Part shown: positions 1,970 to 53,345 of the stretch, piece after piece
How the letters are laid out: every line of letters starts with the position of its first letter
How positions within the stretch are numbered: position 1 is the first letter of the stretch
Made by a program: the position numbers and the translations under genes
Notes under the pieces: generated by a model
Databases searched by the model: none
Seen by the model: only the letters and a program-made list of their open reading frames with translations
Told to the model about the DNA's origin: nothing
From: Protula sp. h YS-2021
Lineage: Eukaryota > Annelida > Polychaeta > Sabellida > Serpulidae
NCBI GenBank assembly: GCA_949752745.1
Contig: OX457027.1
Span: 56,238,053 to 56,302,052 of the forward strand
Direction of reading: 5' to 3'
DNA: 64,000 bases

Positions 1970-3020
1970 GAACACGGAAACTGGATATATTTATCCTTTA
2001 AAATTAAATGATTTTTTGAACAATTCGTAAATTTTTTTCTTTCATTTCCTTCTACCTATCAAACAAATCTGATTAAATAGCTCCAGTTGTTGCTAGAGAA
2101 CTATTATTATGATAATAATTATTATTATTATTACTATTAATATTATTATTATCTATAACATGAATAACTATAATCTGTAACTTGTAAAGTGATTCAGTTT
2201 TTTTTATCTTAGCTGGCTTATGGATGTCCATTTGATAATTCAAACTATGCCGAGAAACTTTATTTCGAAAATTCACCCCTAATCTCGAGGGCCTTTTCTA
2301 AAAAAGTTGCCAGTATGTTTATAGCCTTTCACAATGCGCTGTAGTACGTATTTCGGTCCCGTACATACCCCTATTGTAATATTAATGAGTACTCGCTCCT
2401 TACGCCCGTGACGTTTGTTTCTTCAAGTTGCCCGATTTCCAGATGCCGATGATACGGTAGGCTGACCTAATCTTGCAATTGTTAATCCAAATAATTAACT
2501 CTTTTATGGATTATTATATGGAAATCCGTTAATTTTATGCGGTTTCAATTTCACGAGGCCTCAAAAATATCTCCCTACCTCCAGCCCAACCAGGAGAAAA
2601 TAAAAATATTCAGTAACCATGTTTTCAGAAAAATATTGCAAAACTTCATGTAAATTGAATGTTTTGAATTTGGTTCTGGCAATGTAAATGATTATGTAAA
2701 ACATTTCTATTAATGTTTTTAAAGTAATAAATAGTTTGTTTATATCGAATCGCGTGTGTATGTGTATGTGTATGTATGTGTGTATATATATATGTGTGTG
2801 TGTGTGTGTCTTCAAATGATACTATATTCCGACGTGTCACACATCATGACTTTTTCAATCTAAAAATGGTATTCGGAAGTAGAACTGAAGTTCAGACAAC
2901 CTTATTCTACTCAAAACTATGTCTTTTTTAACTCAGATGCAAAATTTCTCGAGTTTCTTTAAATTAGAAAAATGCCTGAGTTTTAGCAGCTCTTAATCTC
3001 GAAAGTATCATATTTCAATC
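1970..3020. other. 3' flank of the GPCR gene, AT-rich
   Basis: Probable 3' UTR followed by non-coding DNA. It contains an AT-trinucleotide patch at about 2104-2155 and the TG repeat listed separately. No other gene is seen. Confidence 0.4.
2752..2811. repeat. (TG)n/(TATG)n microsatellite
   Basis: Alternating TG and TATG units with a short TA centre. It reads open on the minus strand only as a histidine/threonine run, which is not a gene. Confidence 0.85.
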
Positions 3021-3073
3021 TATCGTTTTATTTCGTAAAACGAGCTTTTACGAGTAAAAGCGCAATTCGCGTT

Positions 3074-3237
3074 CTCCACTTTTAATGGGTTCCCTTCCAG
3101 TAATATTTACCACGCAATATAAAAAAGAACTTTTTGAGGTACTGTTCAAGATACTCTAACCCTTCCATCCATCCTATGGCCAATCAGAATGCCCGAGACG
3201 TCGTCTGCTAGTCTCGTATAAACGACATTCCCTTTTT
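3074..3237. repeat. DIRS element 1, left inverted terminal repeat
   Basis: Exact reverse complement of 10786-10949, including CTCCACTTTTAATGGG and GACGTCGTCTGC. With coding on the minus strand this is the 3' end. A further 53 bp of outer sequence (3021-3073) differs from the outer sequence of the other end, as in DIRS-1. Confidence 0.93.
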
Positions 3238-3305
3238 AGCCCCAAAAGGCGGTAAAACACGCCCAGGCTAGTTGGGGATGGATGGGACGGGTTAAAATCA
3301 AAGTT

Positions 3306-3416
3306 AAAAGTGGAGAACGCGAATTGCGCTTTTACTCGTAAAAGCTCGTTTTACGAAATAAAACGATAGTTTTACTTCGCAAAAGCTTTGAATTCGCTTA
3401 TCTCCACTTTTAATGG
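3306..3416. repeat. DIRS internal complementary region (ICR)
   Basis: The left half is the reverse complement of 3021-3080. The right half, from about 3369, is the reverse complement of about 10934-10983. They meet at CGATA|GTTTTA. In the DIRS-1 model this segment templates the join of the two non-identical ends into the circular DNA that the recombinase integrates. A matching but diverged ICR is at 28512-28602. Confidence 0.9.
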
Positions 3417-4586: not shown

Positions 4587-5669
4587 TCAGCCTGTAATGG
4601 TCGTTTCTGAAGCCACGAACGGTCCTAATGAATATAAGCCAGACAATTCATCTTGAGAAAAATCTTTCAGATAGTATTTAACAAACGAGTTGGGGGAAAC
4701 CCAACAACCTGTTTTTAATATATCCGAAAGGGACACGTTGCGTACCGCCCTGAGGGAATTGGCTACTTGCCTTACCTGATGGGCTTTGATGTTTGATTCC
4801 CCTAACGGGTTAGGGTCGATTTGTGCATCGTCATAGGCTGCCAAAATGATCCTCTTAATATAATTTGAGATCGACTGTTTCGAAAGATCTTTGTTAAATT
4901 TCGGCATAAATGAAATGATGAGAGCCTTCTGATTTTCTGATCGGTAGGCCTCTGACATTTCCAAATACTGTTGCAGCGCTTTGACGGGACACAAAGAGAC
5001 CAGACCGTCTGAGTCGGGGTCATCTGGTAGGGATGGGAGAGTAATGTGATCGAACGTTCCCATCCCTTGGGTCATGATGTGGGTTTTTCCCATGAATCCT
5101 GCTCTAGGGACTAGGGTGACCTTCTCCCATGTACCCTTATCTTTATTTACCTTTCTGTCTAGGGCATGGATTTCGCCTCTTCTTTTGCCCGAAGCTAAGG
5201 CCAATAAAAACGTGAATCTTAATGTTGCGTTTTTTGCTGAAATCACGTCCTTACTAAATATATCTGGGCGCTGAAGATACTGTAAGACTAATGATAAATC
5301 CCACTGCGCTATGTTGGATGGGCAGGGTGGGGAGTTTACTTTAAAATGTCTTACTAGCTGTGATAGGCAAGTATCTTCGCCCGGGTCGTAGCCTGTAGAC
5401 GCTTTGAGTCTTGACCCTATAGCGGCCCTATAGCCCTCGATGGAACTTACCTTTAATTTCACCTCCGTGAAAAGGTGATCGAGGAAATCCGCTACCACTG
5501 CTGGGCTAGCCTGAAACGGATCTAGCTTAGAAGTGCTACACCAAGCGGCAAATTTATTCCACTGCGACCTGTAAACTTTGGCCGTTGAACCCTTGTGACT
5601 GTTTACTATTTTCTCTCTCACCTGCTTAGAAAAACCCTTGTTTTTCAGAAAGGACTGGTCAGACACCAT
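4587..5669 (-). CDS. DIRS tyrosine recombinase (element 1)
   Basis: The C-terminal 360 residues of a frame that stays open upstream to an ATG at 7544. I take the first methionine in front of recognisable recombinase sequence (MVSDQSFLKNKGFSK), after the RT frame closes. The core-binding part (KVYRSQWNKFAAWC...) is followed by the catalytic part. The first Arg is in GKRRGEIHALD, the His-x-x-Arg in AHQVRQVANS, and the nucleophile Tyr in SFVKYYLKDFS near the C-terminus. All catalytic positions are present. The enzyme would integrate the circular DNA copy. The true start is uncertain because the reading frame is shared by an upstream 1.9-kb overlap with RT; translation by frameshift or reinitiation is possible. 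Confidence 0.85.
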   Translation of the reverse strand: MVSDQSFLKNKGFSKQVREKIVNSHKGSTAKVYRSQWNKFAAWCSTSKLDPFQASPAVVADFLDHLFTEVKLKVSSIEGYRAAIGSRLKASTGYDPGEDTCLSQLVRHFKVNSPPCPSNIAQWDLSLVLQYLQRPDIFSKDVISAKNATLRFTFLLALASGKRRGEIHALDRKVNKDKGTWEKVTLVPRAGFMGKTHIMTQGMGTFDHITLPSLPDDPDSDGLVSLCPVKALQQYLEMSEAYRSENQKALIISFMPKFNKDLSKQSISNYIKRIILAAYDDAQIDPNPLGESNIKAHQVRQVANSLRAVRNVSLSDILKTGCWVSPNSFVKYYLKDFSQDELSGLYSLGPFVASETTITG

Positions 5670-7759
5670 AGGTGGAGGTTCAGTAAGCGAGGGGAGGGGT
5701 GGAAGTGATGCCAATGGGGTTGTGATAGCAACTCGTTGTGGCATGGGATCGGTATCGACCTTACTACCTTGCAATGGAGTAGGAGGGCGAACCATGGGGC
5801 TTCCGGTGTCCATGGGGCAATGAGTAATAGGAACGGTGGTTTCAACTCGATTACTCTCTGCAGGACTTGCCCTAAGATTGCTTGTGGGGGAAAGGCATAC
5901 AGTACCTCGTCCCGTGGCCACTGACAATTGAGAGCGTCTACTGCCCAAGCTGCTGGGTCCGGGCAAGGAGACACGTACCGGGGAAGTTGGGTGGTCATCG
6001 CGTTTGCAAACAGATCCAGAGTCGGGGCACCCCATGGGGATTGGTGTGTCACCCACTGAAAGGACCGAGGGGATAGGCACCACTCGGTGTTGATAACTTG
6101 ACCCTGTCTGGAGGCTAAGTCCGCTAGGACGTTTAATTTCCCGGCCAGGTGACGGGCGGAAACGGTCACCTGTTCCTCCCTGGCCTTTGAAAGAATTTGG
6201 AATGCCAGTTTGGACAGGGATCGTGATTTGGTGCCCCCCTGCTTGTTGAGGTAAGCTATGGCTGTGGAGTTGTCTAACCGAAAAAGGACTGCCTTGTTTC
6301 TGAGTTGGTTGGTCAGCTTGATTAGGGCAATCCAGACCACCCGAAGCTCCAGCCAGTTTATGTGGTAGGACTGAAGCGAGGGTGGCCATTTGCCCTTCCA
6401 TACCTGACCATTCCAATAAATTCCCCACCCCGCATGGGACGCATCGGTCTGAATCTCTATCTCCGGGGTGGGGGGCTGAAATGGCATTCCTTCGGACATA
6501 ATTAGAACATCGCACCACCACTGTAGGGCTTGTAGGGTTACCTGTGAAACTTGCATCCTCGCTGCGGGTGAACGACCCTGATGCAACGCCCATCTTACCT
6601 GGCTTTGAAATGGCCTGTAATGGAGACGGCCCAGGGGGACTGTCTTCTCTGTTGCCACTAACAGGCCGAGGAGCGATTCCATGGCCTGTAATCTCACCTT
6701 CTTTCCTGGGGAAATACCTTTTATGGCATCTGCAATTCTCTGGCGGCGTTCTGGCGTAGGGAACGCCTTTGCTATTGCCAGATCCCAAAACTCCCCTAGA
6801 AAGGTAATGGACTGTTTGGGGGTTAGTTCGGACTTGGCTAGATTTACTACTAGACCTACCTCTAGTGCCTTGCGAACTAAAGACATTGTATGATTCTCGG
6901 TTACCTGCCTGTCTTGGTTCGCCAGAAACCAGTCGTCCAGATACTGAAAGACTAACATCCCTTCTAGCCGTGCCCATGTTTTCAGTACTTTCATGACCTT
7001 GGAGAAAACGTACGGGGCCGTAGCCAGACCGAAGGGAAGTGCCAGAAACCAAAATCGTCTTTTCCCTACTTGAAAGGCTAGAAATTTTCTTGCCGAGCGA
7101 TGGAGAGGAATATGGAGGTAAGCATCGGAGAGATCTATGGAGGTACCCCACATCCCTTCCCGTAATGACCCTTTTATCACCTGGGCCGTGTCCATCTGAA
7201 AGGTGATCACTCGGAGAAAACCGTTTATGGGGGAAAGGTCGATTACCAGCCTCCACCCTCCGGATTTCTTGGGAACCAGAAAAACTCTGCTGAAAAAACC
7301 CATTTGATTTTCTGGCATTTCCTCTATCGCCTGTTTTTGAGACAAGCTCAGTAGCATTTCTTGGAGAGCTCGGTCTTTTTCTGACCCCTTGGCGTAAGAG
7401 GTGACTAGTTGTCTTGGCGCATGGGCGGTTAGGGGAATAGGGCACCTGAGCCCGTTCCGGTCTCGTTTGAAAGGTAGGGAGTAACCTCTCTTTAACCAAC
7501 GTACTACCCTTCGAGACGCCCCCATTTCTGCCCATTGCTGCCAAAACTTTCCTAGTCTTCCTCCTACGGGCAAGGAGGCGTTTAAGGAAAGTAAATTTTC
7601 CAAGTCTCTTAAGTTTGCTAAAGTATCGCCAGGAGATAAGGGAATCTCGTGACGGTACTTTGGTTGGCTGCTACCTGAACGACTGTGGAGCCGGACCCTC
7701 TGTCTTGCTGCCGGGGCTGGGTTTCGGTTTCTTGACAGGGGGCTGTTGTGGCTGCGCAC
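5645..7759 (-). CDS. DIRS reverse transcriptase-RNase H (element 1)
   Basis: 704 residues. The RT domain spans about residues 150-330. It starts at MGFFSRVFLVPKKSGGWRL, with the first catalytic Asp in SIDLSDAYLHIPL and the YLDDW active-site box at about residue 273. The RNase H domain spans about 435-560, with QTDASHAGWG (first Asp), NWLELR (Glu), RLDNSTA (Asp) and KLNVLADLAS (final Asp). Its 5' end overlaps the end of gag by 89 bp in a different frame, and its 3' end overlaps the start of the recombinase. The methionine at 7759 is the first in frame and suits this overlap. No stop or frameshift is seen. It copies the element RNA into DNA. Confidence 0.9.
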   Translation of the reverse strand: MRSHNSPLSRNRNPAPAARQRVRLHSRSGSSQPKYRHEIPLSPGDTLANLRDLENLLSLNASLPVGGRLGKFWQQWAEMGASRRVVRWLKRGYSLPFKRDRNGLRCPIPLTAHAPRQLVTSYAKGSEKDRALQEMLLSLSQKQAIEEMPENQMGFFSRVFLVPKKSGGWRLVIDLSPINGFLRVITFQMDTAQVIKGSLREGMWGTSIDLSDAYLHIPLHRSARKFLAFQVGKRRFWFLALPFGLATAPYVFSKVMKVLKTWARLEGMLVFQYLDDWFLANQDRQVTENHTMSLVRKALEVGLVVNLAKSELTPKQSITFLGEFWDLAIAKAFPTPERRQRIADAIKGISPGKKVRLQAMESLLGLLVATEKTVPLGRLHYRPFQSQVRWALHQGRSPAARMQVSQVTLQALQWWCDVLIMSEGMPFQPPTPEIEIQTDASHAGWGIYWNGQVWKGKWPPSLQSYHINWLELRVVWIALIKLTNQLRNKAVLFRLDNSTAIAYLNKQGGTKSRSLSKLAFQILSKAREEQVTVSARHLAGKLNVLADLASRQGQVINTEWCLSPRSFQWVTHQSPWGAPTLDLFANAMTTQLPRYVSPCPDPAAWAVDALNCQWPRDEVLYAFPPQAILGQVLQRVIELKPPFLLLIAPWTPEAPWFALLLHCKVVRSIPIPCHNELLSQPHWHHFHPSPRLLNLHLWCLTSPF

Positions 7760-9908
7760 TCGGCTTAGACGGTGCTGGAGAGGACTGTTGTGGTCTCTTC
7801 CTCTTCAGTGGACGTTTGAAGGAGGAGCGAGACATCCTGGACATCAGGGCATAATCTTGCGAAAGCGAACGACTTTCCTGGTTCACCCTCTCTATCTCGG
7901 CGGGAGGAAATAGTTCTCGTTCCTCCAGGATAGGTGCATGACGCAGGTCCCGCAAACCTTTGACACTAGACCAGCAGTGCTGGAGAAAGGCATCTCGACG
8001 TAAGTAGACCATTGAAGTCATCAAAAAAGTGGAAAGTTTGACCACGTCTCGGGTAGCTAAGGCCAGGCATTCCATCAATTTAGCAGACACGGGATCACTA
8101 AGGCGAAGTTCTTCCGAACGCGACTTTAGTGCTTTAAGTGCATGATCTTGAAAAGACATAATGTTCAGGATGTGGCGAGAAGACGCCTCGATGGTCTTTG
8201 CGTCTTTCTCCACTAATGGAATGTCTGAGTCACTACGCACTGTGGGCATCCAGACTGTACGCTTCACGGGCTGCTCCAGTGCCTCTAGGGGAATTTTTTC
8301 ATCCGCTGACCGATATGGTCCTGGTCGTACTGAGCAATGTTTAGATAAATGGAAACGCGACAACGTGCGACCCTCACCGGCGTCCATCTTCTTGAACTCT
8401 TTCGCGCGGACCGTGACAGCATGAGCAATGCCCTCACTGGTGGCTAGTGCGATAAACGAGTCCTGTTGTGGTGGAGCTGCCTGAGATGTCATCCGAATGG
8501 GCGGATCCTCCTTATCTAAATTTGGGGAGCCACAGGAGACCTCTGCTAAGCGGGCTATCTCTTGAATGGCATCCCTGAACGGCACGTCTTCTGGTGCAAT
8601 CGTAGAAGCAGAACTCGAGGGAGCCGCGTCCTCGACCGATGGGGCAAGATCTGGTGGAGAGGGAGTACGGATGGGCCGTCTGCCCGCTGCCGCTGGATCT
8701 CTCCAAAGTCGATGCCCTTGGCCGGGAGAACGCACCTGCTCCACTGCCCGTAACGGTAAATGACAACGGGAATGTACTGACGTACCCTCGGATTCTTCTT
8801 CCCCGTCTTCCACCTCCGACTCCTGTTCATCAGATGCTGCTTCTGGGAGTTGGGATTGTGAAAAATGTGACATGTGGGGTTCCCCTACTGGGGTGTAAAT
8901 TTCTTTCTCCCTGTTGCTTGGGACTGCTGCTAGGGGAGAATTTTCCATCGGCCCGATTTCCTCATCATCTTCCAGCAATGCGGAGACTTGGCCCGAAAGG
9001 GGCACGCCCACGGAATCCTCCTCGCTGATGGTGACCGTTTCGGGAATATCCACGTTAGAGTCCAGCGGGAGGTGAGGTACAGGCGAGCCCGATATCGCTG
9101 CCACTGACTGAATTTCCGGAGGAGGACGAGAAACCGTAGCTGATGGTTTAGGCTTTTGCCTTTGACTAAGCAGACTCTCCTGCTTCTGAACTTGACTCTG
9201 TAAATCCAAAAGTTGTTTTTGCAGTTGCGATTGCATAGACAAAAACGCTGAAAATTCACTCGGGAGACGCTGCAGCTGAGGAGGGGGGGATAAGTCCTCT
9301 CGCGGGGGAATGCCTAACTGGCCTGTAACCGCCGAAAGTACTGTTCCCGTATCCTTATGCGTTAAAGTCACTTGTTCCTCAGACGGGGACTTAAACGCCC
9401 CTCCTGGACTGCCACTGGGTTTCACTCTAGGAGGTGAGGCCCATGCCTCGCGGAGACGATCCCGTTCTTGCCCTTCCGGGATGTCCAATTCTGCTACAGT
9501 CTCAGAAAATGCACGTCCTTTACTCTTGGACTTTTTATGTCTCTTAACTGGCGTAGCGGATTCCGATTCTGCACCAGTGTCTACGTGTACGGGGGTGGAG
9601 ACCTGGCCCAGAATAACGGAGCTAGCCTTCTTCATGGTATCACGAATAAATTCACGAGTAACAAACGAAGCTGACGAAAGGAATTTGCGCTTATCCCTCC
9701 TGCGCTCGTTCTTGGTCCTATTCCGTAATAGGACTTTCCTATCCTCTGGAGAAAGATGTAGACACTCGCCACACTGGCTGTCTGGCTCACACAGAGGTAT
9801 TCCACTATTCCGTCTACAGCGGTCGCAGATGGAGTGGGGGTTACACGCGGTTGGAGGATGGATACACTGAGGCAGTAACGGTGGAGAATGTAGACTGGCC
9901 TCTGTCAT
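7671..9908 (-). CDS. DIRS gag-like protein (element 1)
   Basis: 745 residues from the methionine of MTEASLHSPPLL; an upstream in-frame ATG at 9968 would add 20 hydrophobic residues and seems less likely. The N-terminus has a cysteine cluster at residues 28, 31, 40, 46 and 49 (CDRC...C...CGEC), probably a zinc-binding knuckle, followed by a basic patch NERRRDKRK. A long Ser/Pro/Gln-rich middle contains a QSQLQKQLLDLQSQVQKQ coiled-coil stretch. The C-terminal half carries the block VWMP.VRSDSDIPLVEK and ends in a Lys/Pro-rich tail. These blocks recur in the three decayed DIRS copies here, which confirms the frame is real. It is the presumed capsid/RNA-binding protein of the element. Confidence 0.85.
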   Translation of the reverse strand: MTEASLHSPPLLPQCIHPPTACNPHSICDRCRRNSGIPLCEPDSQCGECLHLSPEDRKVLLRNRTKNERRRDKRKFLSSASFVTREFIRDTMKKASSVILGQVSTPVHVDTGAESESATPVKRHKKSKSKGRAFSETVAELDIPEGQERDRLREAWASPPRVKPSGSPGGAFKSPSEEQVTLTHKDTGTVLSAVTGQLGIPPREDLSPPPQLQRLPSEFSAFLSMQSQLQKQLLDLQSQVQKQESLLSQRQKPKPSATVSRPPPEIQSVAAISGSPVPHLPLDSNVDIPETVTISEEDSVGVPLSGQVSALLEDDEEIGPMENSPLAAVPSNREKEIYTPVGEPHMSHFSQSQLPEAASDEQESEVEDGEEESEGTSVHSRCHLPLRAVEQVRSPGQGHRLWRDPAAAGRRPIRTPSPPDLAPSVEDAAPSSSASTIAPEDVPFRDAIQEIARLAEVSCGSPNLDKEDPPIRMTSQAAPPQQDSFIALATSEGIAHAVTVRAKEFKKMDAGEGRTLSRFHLSKHCSVRPGPYRSADEKIPLEALEQPVKRTVWMPTVRSDSDIPLVEKDAKTIEASSRHILNIMSFQDHALKALKSRSEELRLSDPVSAKLMECLALATRDVVKLSTFLMTSMVYLRRDAFLQHCWSSVKGLRDLRHAPILEERELFPPAEIERVNQESRSLSQDYALMSRMSRSSFKRPLKRKRPQQSSPAPSKPSAQPQQPPVKKPKPSPGSKTEGPAPQSFR

Positions 9909-10785
9909 ATCTGAAATGCAAGCAGAGAAAAACAACGGTGAGAATATGTAGTATAAAACAACGCACAAAACTACATTTCTCCGTGCTTTGCTTCAACTGC
10001 AAGCTTTAACCTTCCAAGCTGTGTTTACAATTGCTTAAACACCGCAATAACTCGCTGGGTCTAAGGAAAGACGAAAAGAGATGCTTCCCGGAACGATAAC
10101 GTTCCCCGGGCCGTAACGGGCTGGACCGTAATGGCACCACCCGTGTCGGATATGGATCTCTCTTGCCTCAGATGCACCTGGGACCATCGGACCGTAACGG
10201 GTTTTGTGAATCCCGTTGGACCAGAATGGTCTTCTCGCACCCGTGACCGTAAGACCACAAAGGGAAAACGGTCCTGGCAAAGAAAATGACCCTCAGACGT
10301 CACAGAAAACGTCTCTTTTCGTCGGAGAACGCTGTCAGACTTGCAGAACCTGCTCTACAAAGACTGAGAAGCGACCCATGGAGTAAAGCTTAAGCAAAAA
10401 CTGGCCATTTCCGCGATGACACAGCTGGCTGGTAAAGCTTGGAGTCTGATCAGGTCCAGCAGCCTGAAAAGATCCTACTCCTAGACGAACTGAGGTGGAA
10501 CTGGTAAGTTCCTCGATCTGAATGAAAGTGGAGAAAGAGGCGCACTTCTCGGGACTAGGAAAGTGTCTCCGTGATCGTGCAAACTCAACCTAATCAGACC
10601 GAAGAGTAAGATGGCGAATAAACACACTTCGGCTCCATAAATTTATCCCAACGCACAATAATAGATAAAACAATCCATTAGGCAGTGAATTAAGTAAAAA
10701 ATGAAGCAATTCGCACCTTAAACCAGTTCCCTTGCTGCAAAAAAACCGGCAGCACACAGAATGGCGTGTTGTAACGACGCCACGC
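9909..10785 (-). other. DIRS element 1 leader with hairpin motifs
   Basis: Non-coding region between the right inverted repeat and gag. It is studded with short dyads, including GGAACGATAACGTTCC (10090-10105), GGGCCGTAACGGG (10108-10120), GACCAGAATGGTC (10219-10231) and repeated GGACCGTAA. The cluster resembles that of the trailer at 4089-4218. Confidence 0.5.
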
Positions 10786-14996: not shown

Positions 14997-15893
14997 TTAC
15001 TTTCCATGAAGGTGTTTTAAGACATTAGCGCCTAAAACTCTCGCACACTTTGCACGTAACTCGAGAGACGTATTAGTATAACGTTCATATGCATTCGAAG
15101 CCCAGTCCCCCTAGGCCTTGATAACTTCGGTTGGTAAGCCACAGACCAGGGCAAAGGTGACTCCACCCCGTCTCAAAGAGTGGCTATTGTATTGTTTCGA
15201 ATCGTAACCCGCTTGTTGCAGCAGAGAGGCCAGCGTGTGTGAGAAGGCGCTGTGTATGAGGGGCAGTGCGGAATCTCCTGATTTGTACGAAAAAATCGGC
15301 GCTGCAGGTGGTTGTTTAGAAAACACCAGGGATTTGAGGAAGGCCGTAATCGAGCACAGAATAGATCCCTCGATAACAGGTAGCGGAGTAATCAGTTCCC
15401 TGGAAAACGTTTGTATGGTCTTCGTGTGCTTGATACGCAGCAAAGCCGTCTTGCCATCAAAATTGAAATCTCGGCGGCACAGATCCCGCCTACAACAATG
15501 GAACGTCTGAGTTTTTGTAAGCAAAGTAGCTTTACGTGCTAATATGAAGAAACCGACTAAACACGCTGCCCAGAAACACAAATAAAAGCTATCAGCGAGA
15601 TCGAGGTACTTGTGTAAGTTAATTAAAATATCTAGTGTTATTGGGAGCTTTTGTTTTGGAAACGTTCCTTTCGTAACCTCAATGCCTTTCAATACGCTGC
15701 CAAGATGATGATCGCTTGTTTGGGGTGTGTGGTCAAACTCAAGATAAAAGTGTCTGACGCCCAACATGTAACAGCGAATAGAGGAGGGCGAGTGCGTGCG
15801 CGCGAGGTAAGCAGCATACCTGCACAGCGTTATCGGGGCTGCTGGAACTGCCGTATATCCGAAATACTGACAAAAACCAAGACATGTACGAAT
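14997..15893 (-). pseudogene. Tyrosine recombinase of element 5, with a nonsense codon
   Basis: The frame runs from about 15893 (FCQYFGYTAVPAAP) through LVGFFILARKATLL, which carries the first catalytic Arg, to HSLRRGGVTFA, the His-x-x-Arg motif. A TAG at 15111-15113 interrupts it right after LPTEVIKA. Beyond that stop, in the same frame, follows GDWASNAYERYTNTS with the expected nucleophile Tyr and about 25 more residues to TAA at 14997. Only one point change therefore separates the catalytic Tyr from the rest of the enzyme. Nearby frameshifts in RT and RNase H show the whole element is dead. Confidence 0.8.
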
Positions 15894-15992
15894 GTGAACT
15901 AAGTATGCTGAGCGTGTAGTTTTGGCTAAAGCGGCTTGTTTGTATGACCGCCACTACACGTCCACTGCTGTACCACTGCTGAAAGAGAAGGT

Positions 15993-43622: not shown

Positions 43623-46600
43623 ATGTGCAAAAAAATAAGCTATGGATTAAACCACTGCAATCCCAAGCTGTTTGTGAAATCTCAGGTAAATTATTTCACG
43701 TTGTTTTGTGGGTGGATTTGATCTTCCTAGAGGTAAGACGCTTAATTGGAATAATAAGATGCATCGACGGGTGTAACATTTATAAGAGATGTCTTTTTAT
43801 TTACAGTCTATATCATTATGATATGATATTATTATTTATAAACAGGCAAAGAGGTTCTTATAACAAGAGACTGATGGAAATACGTTTTGTTTTCAGTGGA
43901 GAATTCCTCGAATTGTGTACATACTGTATAGGATCGCAGTCGCGTTGTTTTTTGTCGTCTGGATTATTCTCTCTGGTGCCATAAAATACAACTGGGCATC
44001 GTCTGACGCTGACAGGCAAGTGTAAACAAAATCAAGACTGTTCGCTAATTTGTCGACGTCTATTCCCCGTAAACATTCCGACGCCGCCACAATATTGATT
44101 TGAAGTTGTGATGTCGTTCCGATCCAATCGCTATTCTTCATCGTTACTTTTGAAAAATATTCGTGAAAAAATACTTCACTGGTATCATGACCCAAGGGTG
44201 AGGGTACTTTGATGGAGGGTGACCATAGCGCCTTGTAATTATTGTTCATTTTTATAGAGTTATTCTAGATTAATGTTTTCCCGACGTCTCTCCAATATCG
44301 CTCTCCCGACGTCTGTAGAACGTGGTTTTTTCGACACCCATTGATACCTGTTTCGCTGCGATTACTATACGTCGGATAATCAACATCCATCCAACGACGG
44401 CAGGTGTTGCAGTTTTTAAACAATAAACAGGGGTTTAATCAATAGATAGGGCGAGAGATGGAGGCCCTTGAGTGCGTGTGCTAGTTTTCAACCAGTTTTT
44501 AACCAATGTGCGACTTCGCAAATTTGCTTACAGTTGGGAGGGGGGAGGCTGAAAAGTTAGGGTTTAAGGATTACATGCATACGGCTCTGTACTGCCGCCC
44601 CCCCCCCCCAACATCCCACCCCGACCCACTTCATGCTGGAACTGGACTATACAATGCATACAACGTGAATGAGGAGAACTTACCCACAAAAACAACAGGC
44701 TTTTTAAAAACTTAAAAACCGCAAACACAAACATGTTACTGTTTTAGTTATTTCTTGTTCCATTTATTAAGTTTAGTTTATTTTTTTTATGCCGAGAGAT
44801 AGGTTATAAGTAAACTGTTAATTCCAGTACGTATGTGATGTTAACGGAGCATCCTCTGTGCCTTATATCGATTTTTATAAGCAGTCGTAAAGATGTTGCT
44901 GATTACATTTTTGTATCTTCACTTTCAGGAAGAAATGGTTTATTTACATGACAAACTGGTCTTTTACGACGCTAACCCTAGGCGTCATTGCACAGGCTGT
45001 CATTTGCGTATATGACGCGCTAAACAAACGGCATAAGCAGCCTAAAAAACTACAAGTTAGCTATCCAGGTATGTAAACGCGTATGCACGGGAAGGGGTTG
45101 GAGCTGACGCTTTGACTGTGCTAACGTTACAGTACAAGGGTGTTGTAATATTTTTTCAGGGATAGGACGGGGGGGGTGGAGGGAGGGAGGGATCGAACAC
45201 TTAATATGGTACAGTCTAATCAATTCGTTCCTGATAATTCATTTTAGCGCTTTATTCACGCAAGCTTTGAGCTTGTTCAATCCTCTAAACTGTCGTTTTA
45301 TTTCGCAAGAAGAGCTTTTACAAGTAAAAGCGTAATGCGCGTTCTCCACTTTTAGATGGATTTCTGTTCTAGTTTATTCCTTTCACACAAGAGAAAAACA
45401 TTTTCTGTAGGAGGTTGAACAGTCCTATCCCACCATTCTCTCCTATCCCAAACTGGAGAAATACAGTGCTGTGAAAAAATGCGGAATATTTTGTTTAGAC
45501 CATGGTATACCACGATTATTACAGTCTTACTACATGCTGCAAGATCTGCGCCGCATTCTTATTCAAGAATGGAATGCCAAACACAGAAATCAATAACTGC
45601 ACTGCTTCCATACGTAGACCAGTTAACTCGTGCATCGCACAGCAAAGACATAACACGAGATATTGACAGCTTTTTAATTTAAAGAAATGTCCCCACGTGT
45701 GTCTGTGAGATCACGGCAATAAAAGTAATTGGTGACAATCTGTGCAGTTTCTTTTACTGTGTTGCCAAATGAACACTGTTTTCTTCCATAAAATTTCGTT
45801 TAGATCAAAATGACTGCAAAGTACGAAAAAAATGATCCCAAACTAAATATTCCACACCTTTTCACAGGCACTTACTTGGGCGTCTTTCTTGATTGCTCAA
45901 TAACCCTCGATGGACCCTACCCTCATGTGACATTCCGTAAAAAACAGATAATCAAGAAAATCCGCTGTCACTGCTGAAGTCTGAAATGGGTCGATTTTTA
46001 CTTACCACACCAAGAAGCAAAATTTGTCCTATAGCGAACAGTAAACTTTTTGGGCCGATTTCACAACTTAAGTCCAGACCTGATTTGGAGCAAACTCAGT
46101 CTAGACCGCGCTTAGGACTGGGTTTCAGACCATAGTGAATTTCACAGCTTCGGTTCAGACTACATTCATATGTGATCTTCTATGTCTGCAAAAACTGACA
46201 AAACCCTGTTTGGACCGGGGTTGAGACCTGGTTTCAGACCAGATCTAGACTTAAGTTGTGAAATCGGCCCTTTATGTCGACTGCATATGGCCATTTAACA
46301 TTTTCTTAACAACCTGTTTAGAGAAGCCCTTACCTTCTAAGAAGGTCCGGTTAGGCGTCATAGATGTAAGTTCAACAGATGTTGGCGGGATGGACATAGT
46401 CACAGTGTGGCTGCAACAACAGGCCATCGTGGAACGGTATTGGCACCGTTTTCATTGACCGGCAGCGGAAAAGTAAGTGGGACCACGGAGTCTCTGGTGC
46501 CGTAAAGGACTACCATGAGCAGTGTGCCCTGGCTGCAACAACAGGCCCTCGTGGAACGGTATTGGCACCGTTTTCATTGACCGGCAGCGGAAAAGTAAGT

Positions 46601-49600
46601 GGGACCACGGAGTCTCTGGTGCCGTAAAGGACTACCATGAGCAGTGTGCCCTGGCTGCAACAACAGGCCCTCGTGGAACGGTATTGGCACCGTTTTCATT
46701 GACCGGCAGCGGAAAAGTAAGTGGGACCACGGAGTCTCTGGTGCCGTAAAGGACTACCATGAGCAGTGTGCCCTGGCTGCAACAACAGGCCCTCGTGGAA
46801 CGGTATTGGCACCGTTTTCATTGACCGGCAGCGGAAAAGTAAGTGGGACCACGGAGTCTCTGGTGCCGTAAAGGACTACCACGAGCAGTGTGCCCTGGCC
46901 GACCTCTGCTATCTTTCGCATGGCCTTTAATAGGATGGCTATCGGTGGAAAGGCATACGGCATCTCACACGTCGACCACTCGCACTTTAGGGCGTCGATC
47001 GGCCACGCCCTATGATCTGGACATGGGAAACAAATTGACTAATCTCCAACCCCCCCCCCCTTCTGCTTGGGGACTGGAAACACCATGCTGAAAAAACTTG
47101 TTTCAGGCATCTCCTCTATCACGCCCTTGTTCTGTAACTTTTATCATCTTCTGTAAGGCATGGTCCTTTTCTGACTAGGCTCTCTGGCGCTTGAAGTGTA
47201 GAGGGATTGACGGTTTTTGACTTCTCGGTCCCTCTTTAAAGGCGAGAGAGCATAGCCGCCCAGGAGCCAGCGTACTACCTGACGCGATCCCCCTCTTCCT
47301 CCCAGGATTCCCAGAACTTTCCTAGCCTGCTGCCTCTGGAAGGCATTGCAGGAGTGTAAATTTTCTAAGTAGTTTGAGTTTAGAAAACTATCGCTTGGAG
47401 ATGAAGCCATGGTCTCCGAGCGGTACTTTGGTTTGCTGCTACTTGTATTGTTAATGCTGCTGACCCTCCGGCTTACCAACATTAGAAAATTTGACTTGCT
47501 TCAGCCGCGGGGACTGCATCTGTGACTAGCCTATGACTGGTCCGAAGGCGGCTCTCCGTAAATCCCCGAGGTCATCATGTATATGGACAACTTGACAATA
47601 TCCCTGTTGCCAAAGCCAGGTATGCCACGAGTTTTAGACACGGGGTCTCATATTCTCAAACCTAGATTTAAGGGCCTTGCGTGTATGGTCTTAAAAGGAC
47701 ATAATGGTCAAGACGTGGCGAGACGATGCTTTGATGGCCTTTTCGACTGATGGAATGTATGAGTAGCTTTTGACCGATAGCATCCAAAAGGTACGTTTAG
47801 TTGGCTACTCCAACGGCTCCATAGGGGTAATATCGCCCTAGGAGCGATAGGAGGCCGATCGTTCGGCCCTCATTCGCATCCATCCTATTAAATTTGTTTG
47901 ATCGAACAACTATAGTATTGAAGATGCCCTCAATTCTAGCGAAGGCAACCAACGATTCCTACTGTGACAGTACGGCCTGGGATCGAATCTCAATAGGGGA
48001 GGAGGCCATCCCTGTCTTGCAAGGGTGTGTCACATGTCACTTGCAAACGGGATCCATCGACGAAAGTTAACGAAGGTGTGCACTCTTCAACTGACGAATT
48101 GAGGTCTGGAGGAGAGACAGTGTAGATGAGGCTACGGTCTGCTGCCACTGGGTCCTTTCCTGGTGACCGAATACAGTACACTGCTCGTATAGATGGCTGG
48201 AAGTGGACGGGGAGGGGTGGGTACTTAAACTGATTTTTTGGTGTCTGCATCTGCCTTTTCCCTCTCGGACTCGAAGGCCTCTTAGTAATCAGGTTACTCT
48301 GACTGGTAAGGGCACCTGGTGGAGTGTATATTTCTTTGTCTCTAGTTTGGGGAATAGACAGCAAGGCGAATCCCGGCAGTTGACCGAATGGGGAGATGCC
48401 TGCGGCTCGCCCTTGCTTACTGTGACAGTCTGTTTTGCCTCACTAGGCTTCGTACGTAAAGATATCGTAGGGTGGAAGTGAGAGTATGAGCCTCTTCCAC
48501 TGGGTGGGGGGGGGGGGGACACCCTGGCCAATGATTAGCTCTTCTTAAGTCACAACCCCGCCTCCTGACTCTGGGCCTGTGTACTGTTCACTTTAATTCC
48601 TGCAACCTTGGCTGTATTTGAGCCTGAAGAGACAAGACGCTCGGAAGATTCATGACTTTCGTGGGGGAGGGGGGTGGCGCCGGCGTTGTGCTTGAGGACT
48701 GTGCCTGTGAGATGATATCCAGGTGAGTCCTTATGAGCCACTGCCATTTCTTCACTGGAGGACTGACATTTGTTTTCGGCGTTCTCCTAAATTTTTGTCT
48801 TCTCCGAGTGCACAGCAGCCCACGCCTTGTCGACAGTGGAGCGTTACCCTGTGAGAAGCAAGTCCAGTTCAGCCACAGTTTCACAATAATCTGCCGCTTT
48901 CTTTGTGATTTTTTTACTATTTTTGACCTCGTGGTGTGTCGGATCCGGTCCCAGTGTCCATATGTACTAGTGTTGACAGTTAGGCCAAGATGACTGAGCT
49001 AGCTTTCTTCACTGGGTCCCTAAAGTCCTCAGTACTGAAAGGGGTGGCGGCTAGAACATTCCTTTTGTCACGTCTCCGTTCGTTTTTAACACGTATCCGA
49101 TTGATGTCTTTCCACTCCTTATTTCGGAAGTGGCAATACTCAACGCAGGTTAAAGTGCCGTCGCAAAGGAGCAAGCCACTTGCCCGTTTACACCTGTCAC
49201 AAACCAAATGTGGGTTTAGAGCTGCGGATGGGTATGTGCACAAAATATTGATATAGACTGACTGTAGATCGGCCTTTGTTGTGTCTGAAAGGCACTCAGA
49301 AAAAAGAGCATATGATCACAGTAGCTGTTACCAGCAAACATACAGTTAATGCAACAAAACACTTAATACATAGGCTCAAGCTTTTCTCAACGAATAAGTT
49401 TACCGAAAAATGTTGTCTGAAACAATTGAAGGCACTCTTGGCTATTGGAGATGCTACAAGGGCGTCATGGCTCCCTTTTCGCAGACACGGGCCGGAAGGG
49501 GGGCCTTAATAGGCCCATTATCGAACCAAGTGTCATAGCACCCTTGGCTTGAAGACCAAGAGGTGCCATGATGGTTCGACAGTGGTGTCGAAACGGTACC

Positions 49601-52310
49601 AAGACGGGGCTGCTGCAAAAAAAATTCCGTGCTACAAGGCCTAGAAGCGCTAGCCACGTGTCCAAAACCTCGGATGTTGTAACATCTCCCATGCTCGACG
49701 GAACTACATTTGTCCTTCGCAGTGCACAAGCTTGCGCAAAACTGTTCAGACATAGGTGGCGCAGTGAGCTGAGAACAGCCTGGAGTCAAAACAAGCAACT
49801 GTAGATCGAAATGACATTGAAGAATTCCAAGGTAATATTTGCAATTACATCAATTGAAGCTTCTTGTGGAAAACAGAGGCAAACTTCCCGGAACTATTGA
49901 CATGTCTACGCTGTATAAACTCTCCCCTACGACCAAAGTTACAAATGCTAGAAATTCCACTTGTAGTGAACTAAATTTATCCAAATTTCAGCCTGTGATA
50001 AATCAGTCCTTTATTTATCGAATACAATATAAAAGTAGAAGATATCACACCTGATTCCCTCGACGAAGTTTGAGGATCACACAGAATGGCGTGTGTTTGT
50101 CGACTCACGCCGAAAGGGAATGCCGTATTACAGCAGTGAAGTAATACAATGTAATTTCTCCACTTCTGATTGGCTCTTGAGGGCTTGGCGGTATGGAACT
50201 TTTCGAACTGCTACAGAAAAGCTTTTTTTCGATTGCGTGAAAGAAATAAACCGGAAGGGAACACATCTAAAAGTGGAGATGAGCGAATTCAAAGCTTTTG
50301 CAAAACAAAATCACAATTAAACATTGGTTTTCACGTTGCTACAAAGTGTCTCTGCATTGTACAACTATTTTTCCTTGATGTGTTTATTGTTTATTTGATT
50401 GTCTGTTTATGCCTGAAGAGCCTGTTCAGCTACCATGGTGTTACAAAGTAACATGGGTACTCTACAATGTCTCCTCACTCAGTGCACTAATGGTTACCGT
50501 ACTGTTCTGGATCCTCCTTTACCCTCAGTATCGCGGTAAGTCTTTTTGCGGCTGTGAGAACCAAATAATGCGAATTATAATTTTTGACAATTATGAATTT
50601 AATATGTACGAAATTATACAGAACGCAAAGGTTCGAACATTGACATTTGAGTATGGGTAAATAGCTGTGACAAATGTATCGTTTCTGTTTTGTTGTGACG
50701 AAAGGGGGCTATTCATGTCTCTGGTCGTTCTGGTTTTACACCGCAACATGTGAAAAGAATAAAGTAGGAAATATCACCTTCTTCAAAAGGATGAATGCGA
50801 TTTCTTATGTACAGCTAGAATTTATGAAATTTTTGACGTGGTGCATCTTTGTTATGCGATTATTGCACACCACATGGTCACTAGTTCATAACAAAAAATG
50901 GAATTAAATACTATATCAGTTTTGTAACGTATTTGTGCCAGATATTATGCAGTGTTATTTTATCAAGCAGGTGTCGGATACCCCCAAGAAGGGTAATGGA
51001 TGCGTTCGAACCACCCTCCCCTCTTCCTCCGACATCTTAAAAATCGGCTGAGGGGGGGGGTGGAATTTGCAAAATCTGATACCCCCCTCTGTATACACTC
51101 CTTCGGCCATTGTTTCCGCAGGTTTAAGATATGAAACAACCTGTACCAAGCCGAAGATTCGGTATGCTTAACCTAAAATGCAGACATAAACCAAAAGGGT
51201 TTTTGTCACTTTTTTCAATCCCACCATTCAATTTTTAGCATGTTCAGGCGACGAGGTGTTGGTGAGCTGTGGTTCCCCATGCACTGCTACATGTGTCGAT
51301 CCGGAGCCTGTGTGCAGTGCCACGTGTGAGGAGCGCTGCCAGTGTCCCGACAGCGCCCCCTTGTGGCATGATGGCGAGTGTCTGGCCATGGATGCTTGCC
51401 CGCCAGGACCCTACAACCAGACCAAGACTTACGAAAAAACAGGTATACGTGCGCGCGGTTCATATAAAGCCCCGAGGGGTGGGAGCACACTTCCTTAGTT
51501 TGGTCGGTTCATATATGTGGCGGGAAAAGGCCCAAAATTTGGCCACCGCCATCGTAAATAGAGTACGATCTTTTCGAATGCAGCACATTAAAGCATTCTT
51601 TCTGAGCGCTCGGTGCACAACTCATCCTCCCCTCCCTCTCCCCGGCCACTCCTGAGTAACAAATGAAACATTCCATTTGAGGATCCAGACTTATGGTGTG
51701 GATCTAGACCAAACACAAATTTATTACAGTGAAATTTCTGAAAAGAAACACCGTTTGGGCAGTTAATACGTTCATTAACTTAGAAATTCTCCAGAATCAC
51801 AGATTTACATTTATCAATGATTTTGCATCCTATGTTCATATGTACCATTTAAAAAATATTTTCTACATTTTAGCTTTATATAAGATCCACTACATCAGCA
51901 TTATGACGCACGCGGGGAATTCCATCTACGTCGTTGTGAACATTTTCGTCACTGCTATGCCCATGCGAGTTTTCCACTACATCCATTATGCCGTCTACGC
52001 TGTGATCTACACCATTTTCACAGTAATCTATCACCTTGCGGATGGCACAAATGCATGGGAACACCCATACATCTATAGCGTCATTGACTGGAGGTATCCC
52101 TTCAAAACATCCATCTACATTGTGGGTTGTTTTGTCCTCAGCATGGTTCTCTGGTTGGTGCTGTTCGGGATCACAAAGCTGCGTGTTTGTGTGTACAGGA
52201 AATTCTGCGCCCCTATCCGCAGCAGCGACCGTACCGCTGGACAAGATCTGAATTTGATGGCCGGATCTGGGAATGCAAAGGTGGATGAAGAATCTACGTC
52301 GTCTTTTTAA
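43623..52310 (+). CDS. Rolling-stone-like multi-pass membrane protein with an inserted TIL domain
   Basis: Six exons: 43623-43685, 43897-44015, 44929-45068, 50419-50535, 51239-51442 and 51874-52310, giving 359 residues. An in-frame stop precedes the ATG. Family marks are FVKSQWRIPRIVYILYR with TM1 (27-50) and KKWFIYMTNWSF with TM2 (66-89). LPWCYKVTWVLYN leads into TM3 (120-142). THAGNSIYVVVN lies in TM4, TM5 is 250-269, and PYIYSVIDWRYP precedes TM6 (295-315). The loop after TM2 and the C-tail are basic, which places the TM3-TM4 loop outside. Residues 148-200 form a ten-cysteine TIL domain there, followed by an NQT sequon. Drosophila rolling stone acts in myoblast fusion; the role here is unknown. 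The exon 3/4 junction could also use GTTAGC with acceptor CAG at 50429. An AATAAA lies at 52512. Confidence 0.88.
43897..44015 (+). CDS. Rolling-stone-like gene, exon 2 ending at a GC donor
   Basis: Encodes TM1. The acceptor is TTTTGTTTTCAG. The exon ends GACAG|GCAAGTGT, an AG|GCAAGT donor. Only this GC site keeps the family sequence, since the split Arg codon continues into KKWFIYMTNWSF. The nearby GT at 44020 would shift exon 3 into an unrelated frame. Confidence 0.75.
45870..46400 (-). pseudogene. N-terminal remnant of DIRS recombinase, element 2
   Basis: The plus strand shows CCTCGATGGACCCTACC, AAAATCCGCTGTCACTGCTG and CACACCAAGAAGCAAAATTT. These align in order with element 1 at about 5435-5570. 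A MITE splits the remnant at 46052. The part that would carry the catalytic residues is absent. Confidence 0.65.
46052..46270. mobile_element. MITE inserted in the recombinase remnant
   Basis: Ends are inverted repeats of about 30 bp. The left starts GGGCCGATTTCACAACTTAA, and the right is its complement with two or three differences. The inner part has more AGACC and GGTCT dyads. A short T-rich duplication may flank it. It interrupts DIRS similarity on both sides, so it arrived after the DIRS copy. Confidence 0.8.
46409..46896. repeat. Four-copy 122-bp tandem array
   Basis: Units start GGCTGCAACAACAGGCC at 46409, 46531, 46653 and 46775. The last three are nearly identical, differing only at single bases such as TACCACGAG in the last. 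A fifth start appears at 46895 and then passes into DIRS sequence. Each unit holds the dyad CGGTATTGGCACCG and a GTAAGT word in host sense. Identity between units indicates recent expansion. Confidence 0.92.
46900..47482 (-). pseudogene. RT remnant of DIRS element 2 with large deletion
   Basis: The minus strand from 47482 reads SSKPKYRSETMASSP and RKVLGILGGRGGSRQVVRWL, the RT N-terminus seen in element 1 at about residues 30-90. After the segment matching MGFFSRVFLVPKKS the sequence jumps near 47040 to one matching the RT-frame C-terminus at 5865-5960. About 1.2 kb, including YLDD and RNase H, is deleted. Confidence 0.75.
47500..49243 (-). pseudogene. Gag of DIRS element 2, broken
   Basis: The N-terminus, 48980-49243, reads NPHLVCDRCKRASGLLLCD with the same cysteine spacing start as in element 1, then KNERRRDKRNVLAAT and KKASSVILA. 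Further pieces are LSLQAQIQPRLQELK near 48600 and RDKEIYTPPGALT with SPPDLNSSVEECTPS at 47990-48364. The C-terminal part is visible only as DNA similarity near 47520-47900. Stops and frameshifts separate the pieces. Confidence 0.75.
49244..50309 (-). other. Leader and right terminus of DIRS element 2
   Basis: Includes hairpin words such as GGGCCTTAATAGGCCC at 49500-49515. From about 50080 it carries the right terminal repeat homologous to 10760-10980 (ACACAGAATGGCGTGT, AAAGGGAATGCCGT). The outer 50 bp match DIRS element 1 closely. Confidence 0.6.
51239..51442 (+). CDS. TIL-domain exon (symmetric, phase 1-1)
   Basis: 204 bp with acceptor CAATTTTTAG and donor ACAG|GTATAC. It encodes cysteines at protein residues 148, 157, 161, 165, 172, 176, 180, 182, 194 and 200. 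The order C-x8-C-x3-C-x3-C-x6-C-x3-C-x3-C-x-C-x11-C-x5-C is that of TIL domains. The exon joins exon 4 and exon 6 in frame, and removing it also leaves the frame intact. In active TIL inhibitors the reactive bond lies between the fifth and sixth cysteines; here that stretch is CSATC. A linker PPGPYNQTKTYEKT with one sequon follows. Confidence 0.88.
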
Positions 52311-52734: not shown

Positions 52735-52834
52735 GCTTCGGATTTGACTAAATTTGAAATTGGGTTGGTATTTGTAGCTTATGAATTTGATTGTTTATTG
52801 TCTAAAAGAATTGTGCGTTGTGCTGAGGTGCTGT

Positions 52835-53345
52835 GAACACAGCACTATGCAATGTGATGGTGTATGAGCGCAACCTTATATAATCCAGTGGTGTGTGAAC
52901 ACGGCATTACGCAATGCAATGGTGTGTGAACGAAACATTATGCAATGCAATGGTGTGTGAACGCAACATTGTACAATCCAGCAATATGTGAACGCAACAC
53001 CACACAATGCAATGGTGTGTGAACGCAACATTCTACAATGCAATTGTGTGTGAACGCAACATTCTGCAATGCAATTGTGTGTGAACGCAACACTATACAA
53101 TGCAATGGTGTGTGAACGCAACATTCTACAATGCAATTGTGTGTGAACGCAACATTCTACAATGCAATTGTGTGTGAACGCAACATTCTGCAATGCAATT
53201 GTGTGTGAACGCAACACTATACAATGCAATTGTGTGTGAACGCAACACTATACAATGCAATGTGTGTGAACACAACATTATACAATGCAATGGTGTGTGA
53301 ACGCAACATTATGCAATGCAATATTAAATGAATGCAATATTATAC
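52835..53345. repeat. 31-bp minisatellite, about 16 copies
   Basis: Unit GTGTGTGAACGCAACATTCT followed by ACAATGCAATT, with a period of 31 bp measured between 53041, 53072 and 53103. Variation at ATTCTG/ATTCTA/ACTATA positions marks sub-families. Because 31 is not a multiple of three, the open minus-strand frame cycles through three readings of the same unit and is not a gene. Confidence 0.92.

Follow-up and report, generated by a model that had tools for sequence, protein, structure and literature searches.

A rolling-stone gene of the annelid Protula with a probable TIL module exon in its TM3-TM4 intron

A predicted rolling-stone (Rost) gene of Protula sp. h YS-2021 carries an exon encoding a ten-cysteine TIL domain between the exons for its third and fourth transmembrane segments (Table 1). 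The gene lies in a stretch of 64,000 nucleotides (hereafter the window; C4:56238053-56302052) and is modelled as six coding exons on the + strand, from 43623 to 52310 of the window. Judging from the sequence, the TIL module exon within the Rost gene is probably the genuine architecture of this gene. We propose that a rolling-stone gene gained a symmetric phase 1-1 TIL exon by insertion into an ancestral phase-1 TM3-TM4 intron. When the exon is spliced in, the product would be a six-pass protein of 359 residues with cytoplasmic ends and a disulfide-closed TIL domain in the second outside loop; when it is spliced out, an ordinary Rost protein of 291 residues would be made. The most likely use, in our view, would be that the TIL domain binds an extracellular serine protease and that the Rost helices tether it to the cell surface.

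Table 1. Predicted exons of the Rost gene, its TIL region and the Rost genes of the genome (window positions unless a contig is named)
Feature	Position	Strand	Content	Remarks
Coding exon 1	43623..43685	+	21 residues, ends in phase 0	Donor CAG/gtaaat; newly added in this analysis
Coding exon 2	43897..44015	+	TM1	GC-AG donor CAG/gcaagt
Coding exon 3	44929..45068	+	TM2 and most of the basic cytoplasmic loop	
Coding exon 4	50419..50535	+	TM3, ends in phase 1	Donor GCG/gtaagt
Coding exon 5 (TIL domain exon)	51239..51442	+	204 nt, phase 1-1, ten Cys	PF01826 and PDB TIL matches
TIL domain proper	51241..51399	+	53 residues, aa 148-200 of the 359-aa product	Bait C-S-A-T-C
Coding exon 6	51874..52310	+	TM4-TM6, cytoplasmic tail, stop	PF21534 157-264 of 275
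Former single TM3-TM4 intron	50536..51873	+	Phase 1	Now two introns, of 703 and 431 nt, on either side of the TIL exon
Rost genes	Window gene; C4:27.6 Mb; C8:23.1 Mb (two in tandem); C10:6.75 Mb			

The host was recognised through the Rost profile PF21534, which matched the product without the TIL exon (exon 1 included) at 127.8 bits (cut-off 26.8; E 6.8e-37) over positions 17-264 of 275. With the TIL exon the score was 112.4 bits and the match was split in two stretches, the module sitting between profile positions 148 and 157. Exons 4, 5 and 6 are flanked by AG/GT or by the stop codon and form one open frame when joined. The sequence-only reading had placed the TIL exon, in frame, between the exons for TM3 and TM4 of a rolling-stone gene; the predicted model agrees with it, down to the borders of these three exons. 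Exon 1 was the one candidate returned when the range 20000-43890, on the 5' side of exon 2, was scanned for a phase-0 exon, with general donor weights and a general Rost N-terminal motif as filters; its addition raised the Rost score from 113.6 bits to the value given above and extended the profile coverage, which previously began at position 42 (42-264). The intron that follows exon 2 (44016-44928) is of the non-canonical GC-AG type. A protein database search with the spliced product yielded 774 candidates, none at E 1e-3, and no match of exon 6 was confirmed among viral contigs (8 pattern-matched stretches) or genome contigs (23). A single PDB match of the Rost part, at E 0.8, was taken as chance.

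Taken alone, the TIL exon matched PF01826 over the whole profile (1-55 of 55) at 31.3 bits, above the cut-off of 24.5 (E 2.2e-07), which upholds the earlier claim that this exon encodes a ten-cysteine TIL domain; within the 359-residue product the score was 26.9 bits. Its cysteines stand in TIL order with spacing 8-3-3-6-3-3-1-11-5. A ten-cysteine TIL pattern, composed after the exon had been seen and with wide gaps, had a single match across all six frames of the window and none in 150 first-order Markov windows of equal length. In the PDB, the exon matched LL-TIL (8hwu; E 7.6e-06) and the chymotrypsin inhibitor 1ccv (E 4.8e-04). The NCBIfam profiles gave no match to the exon, a protein database search with the TIL part of the product gave one candidate and none at E 10, and none of 12 pattern-matched stretches of viral contigs was confirmed as a match of the exon. 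A single-sequence structure prediction of the TIL exon alone reached a mean pLDDT of 47.1, and the model was discarded. The G+C content of the exon is 0.59, versus 0.41-0.47 in the other four exons measured; this fits a separate origin and also the content of Cys and Pro.

We then asked how the exon might be spliced. Since it measures 204 nt and has phase 1 at both ends, the frame remains open whether it is included or skipped. The exon is preceded by ATTTTTAG and its 3' border reads CAG/GTATAC, a donor that lacks G at +5 and that scores 0.53 bits, the weakest of the gene, versus 5.06, 8.6, 5.62 and 5.51 bits for the others; the scale is rough, as the weights were general ones and the GT/GC pair itself was left unscored. 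Given this weak donor, which 8.1% of the GTs of the window equal or surpass, the exon may be left out of transcripts often, or even always. Another donor, after 51478 (1.08 bits, phase 1), would add 36 nt, that is 12 residues, in frame, and the 3' end of the TIL exon is therefore uncertain by 36 nt. Such a donor, and a frame that survives skipping, speak for a silent or dying exon: one that came to lie in the intron but enters the mature transcript seldom, if ever, so that the gene makes an ordinary Rost protein. However, the ten cysteines, the open frame, the splice dinucleotides and both phases are intact, and drift would break them unless the insertion were recent. Moreover, a repeat-borne insertion was looked for and rejected, as the segment 50300-52400 matches only itself in the window at E 1e-3 with the low-complexity filter on, which also speaks against a silent exon. 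We regard this explanation as distinctly unlikely.

Two further explanations would remove the TIL exon from the Rost gene altogether. It might belong to a small secreted inhibitor nested inside the Rost intron, and in fact its frame continues past the donor as far as the stop at 51496-51498, as that of a last exon might. But between 45069 and 51238 of the + strand there is no ATG with a hydrophobic stretch followed by a phase-1 donor of at least 2 bits, except within Rost exon 4; furthermore, the introns on both sides are short and its phases match those of the Rost exons. A nested gene is thus very improbable. That the TIL exon of another gene was misplaced here during assembly is hardly credible: nothing seen speaks for it, a 103-Mb contig extends far beyond the stretch on both sides, and the window contains no N.

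The genome searched comprises 863 Mb in 218 contigs. The Rost profile matched four places, and exon searches around them led to five Rost genes, which is a lower bound, the C10 gene being counted as one with its TM3 and TM4 exons about 5.6 kb apart. Over TM3-TM6, the window gene shares 29-32% identity with the four paralogues; of 24 columns without variation among these four, it preserves 18, which speaks for the proposed architecture, and differs at 6, which speaks against it; at one of the 6, Asn stands in place of a conserved Asp. In each of the five genes found, the TM3 and TM4 exons are separated by an intron of phase 1. In the four paralogues, neither tblastn nor a scan for cysteine order revealed a TIL exon within it. 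For tblastn, three TIL queries were compared with three joined regions at an E limit of 1; they gave 8 rows, three of them in TM3-TM4 introns. The relaxed cysteine-order scan of the same joined regions, on both strands, gave no match. Candidate remnants were rejected in two introns: in C10, two rows (E 0.024 and 0.13) correspond to a cysteine-rich minisatellite without TIL order, and in C8a the candidate was one minus-strand row at E 0.93. The C10 intron contains, at about 2481-3321 of locus L004, open cysteine-rich repeats with units of the CGRFVSEP type.

A shuffled module that entered an old phase-1 intron would be expected to leave this pattern, a symmetric exon within a shared intron of matching phase. 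Exon shuffling, as suggested by the sequence-only reading, gains strength both from the position of the phase 1-1 exon, within an intron of phase 1 common to the five Rost genes, and from the homologous intron of the four paralogues, in which no TIL exon was found. The simplest history would be that the line leading to the window gene gained a 1-1 TIL exon by insertion into an intron of phase 1 that was already old. Alternatively, it is possible that the TIL exon was lost from the other Rost lines, a scenario that needs more steps. The accompanying claim that rolling-stone proteins have no such insert holds for the four paralogues of the same genome and for the literature searched, and is to be read within those two.

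The predicted topology places the module outside the cell, on balance, with the N and C termini inside and the TIL domain in the second outside loop. Six hydropathy peaks were found in the product without exon 1. The TM2-TM3 loop has 6 K/R and 1 D/E, the tail has 7 K/R, and exon 1, as read from the sequence, contributes four lysines to a segment ahead of TM1 that already has two arginines; the TIL loop is acidic (5 K/R, 11 D/E). However, 4 K/R lie in the outside loop TM1-TM2 and a single one in the inside loop TM4-TM5, so that not every loop obeys the positive-inside rule. The earlier placing of the TIL loop outside by the positive-inside pattern is supported by hydropathy and overall charge. 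Sequons occur at residue 70 in the first outside loop, at residue 124 at the start of TM3 (inside), and at residue 206, the NQT reported earlier to follow the TIL domain. The five non-TIL cysteines of the product without exon 1 are located in helices or cytoplasmic parts and none in outside loops, and the two further cysteines brought by exon 1 fall in the cytoplasmic N terminus. The ten TIL cysteines could therefore pair with each other.

Does the module inhibit a protease? In the bait segment C-S-A-T-C, alignment with 1ccv and LL-TIL predicts Ala at P1, which we take to be the second residue between Cys5 and Cys6 in 1ccv. The changes in an LL-TIL mutant deposited in the PDB fall in the bait segment, in agreement with this placement of P1. 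The silkworm inhibitor BmSPI39 has a putative P1 Ala and inhibits elastase and subtilisin (PMC10004685). By this likeness, elastase- or subtilisin-like proteases, and not trypsin-like ones, would be the first guess for targets, if the window TIL domain inhibits at all. TIL modules are also found in non-inhibitors such as mucins, and to our knowledge the TIL domains of mucins and von Willebrand-type proteins are not inhibitors, so that the fold is no proof of inhibition. We place the probability of an inhibitory role, as read from the sequence, below one half. The membrane-anchored inhibitor or adhesion module proposed in the sequence-only reading is likewise an inference. The complete proposal, in which a six-pass Rost protein becomes a cell-surface-tethered TIL inhibitor of elastase type through one shuffled cassette exon, switchable by in-frame alternative splicing, is rather unlikely in our estimation.

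A serious possibility, although short of an even chance, is that the same architecture is non-inhibitory and that the TIL domain covers the extracellular side of Rost as a structural or adhesive cap, with no protease bound. In favour of such a cap, the weak matches of the TIL exon in the PDB include a chain of von Willebrand antigen 2 (E 0.065). Conversely, CSATC has the spacing of inhibitors and the P1 Ala seen in an active TIL inhibitor; the bait spacing, however, is general to TIL domains and discriminates poorly. The cap also draws support from OATP1B1, whose Kazal domain has a disulfide contact with another loop and a function that, in the portion of the article concerned, "still remains elusive" (PMC10709409).

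The rest of the window was surveyed through its 106 open reading frames of at least 85 aa; five, among them the frame of exon 5, were scanned with Pfam and the others were looked over. On the minus strand, 4590-9992 and 15114-15953 contain long frames of 1027, 719, 773 and 280 aa, presumably of the class of tyrosine-recombinase retroelements. The 1027-aa and 280-aa frames gave weak phage-integrase-like Pfam matches, below cut-offs, and the 773-aa frame gave none. Intron 3 of Rost contains three pieces that match this retroelement-like region at 69-77%. The same intron harbours a 122-bp tandem repeat in four copies of about 99% identity (46408-46899), and a 31-bp minisatellite of 16 copies lies shortly 3' of the Rost gene (52827-53322). 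At 1616-1966 of the + strand, an open frame matches the final portion of a rhodopsin-family GPCR (PF00001 200-260 of 260; E 1.6e-10). Rfam gave no match over the window at gathering score.

The union of TIL and Rost looks new as a combination of two known families, with precedent in kind. It was not found in the literature searched by paired family names, and its spread was checked in one genome. Pairing rolling stone with trypsin inhibitor-like returned zebrafish otolith work, judged unrelated from the part retrieved; no literature was found on TIL with exon shuffling or domain architecture, or pairing rolling stone with ADTRP. Classic exon shuffling is known mostly in secreted and single-pass proteins. 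Sister genes that keep the intron bare, set beside a phase 1-1 module in a loop of a multipass membrane protein, allow one to ask how such loops tolerate new domains. Drosophila rost is reportedly required for myoblast fusion. If the TIL module works, a family known mainly for muscle-cell fusion would be tied to the control of extracellular proteolysis. In other animals, rolling-stone expression is recorded in the ascidian endostyle, with no mention of domains in the passages concerned (PMC9953650), and a Trichoplusia rolling-stone-like protein of the brush-border membrane proteome has, according to the passage on it, 6 TM domains and no signal peptide (PMC7379565).

Compared with the rolling-stone family, the window gene matches PF21534 over most of the profile and has six predicted TM segments, as does the Trichoplusia protein just cited; it differs by the TIL module at TM3-TM4, where none was found in the four paralogues of the same genome. 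With the TIL inhibitors 1ccv and 8hwu, the domain shares ten cysteines in order and a bait segment between Cys5 and Cys6, and LL-TIL also has Ala at the aligned P1, whereas BmSPI39 of Bombyx has eight cysteines. The chains of 1ccv and 8hwu consist of 56 and 58 residues; in contrast, the window TIL domain would be held between two helices of a multipass protein, one at each end. Among multipass proteins, OATPs are MFS transporters with 12 TM segments. In OATP1B1, the Kazal domain occupies extracellular loop 9-10, which carries N-glycosylation sites, as stated in the portion of the article cited (PMC10709409). Like the predicted position of the window TIL domain, this is a disulfide module of protease-inhibitor type in an extracellular multipass loop. 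The OATP/SLCO case differs in having Kazal and not TIL, and an MFS host and not Rost; moreover, its Kazal domain is disulfide-linked to another loop, according to the same portion, whereas the predicted window protein has no spare outside cysteine. By analogy, the Kazal domain of OATPs is nevertheless the closest design precedent for the architecture predicted here.
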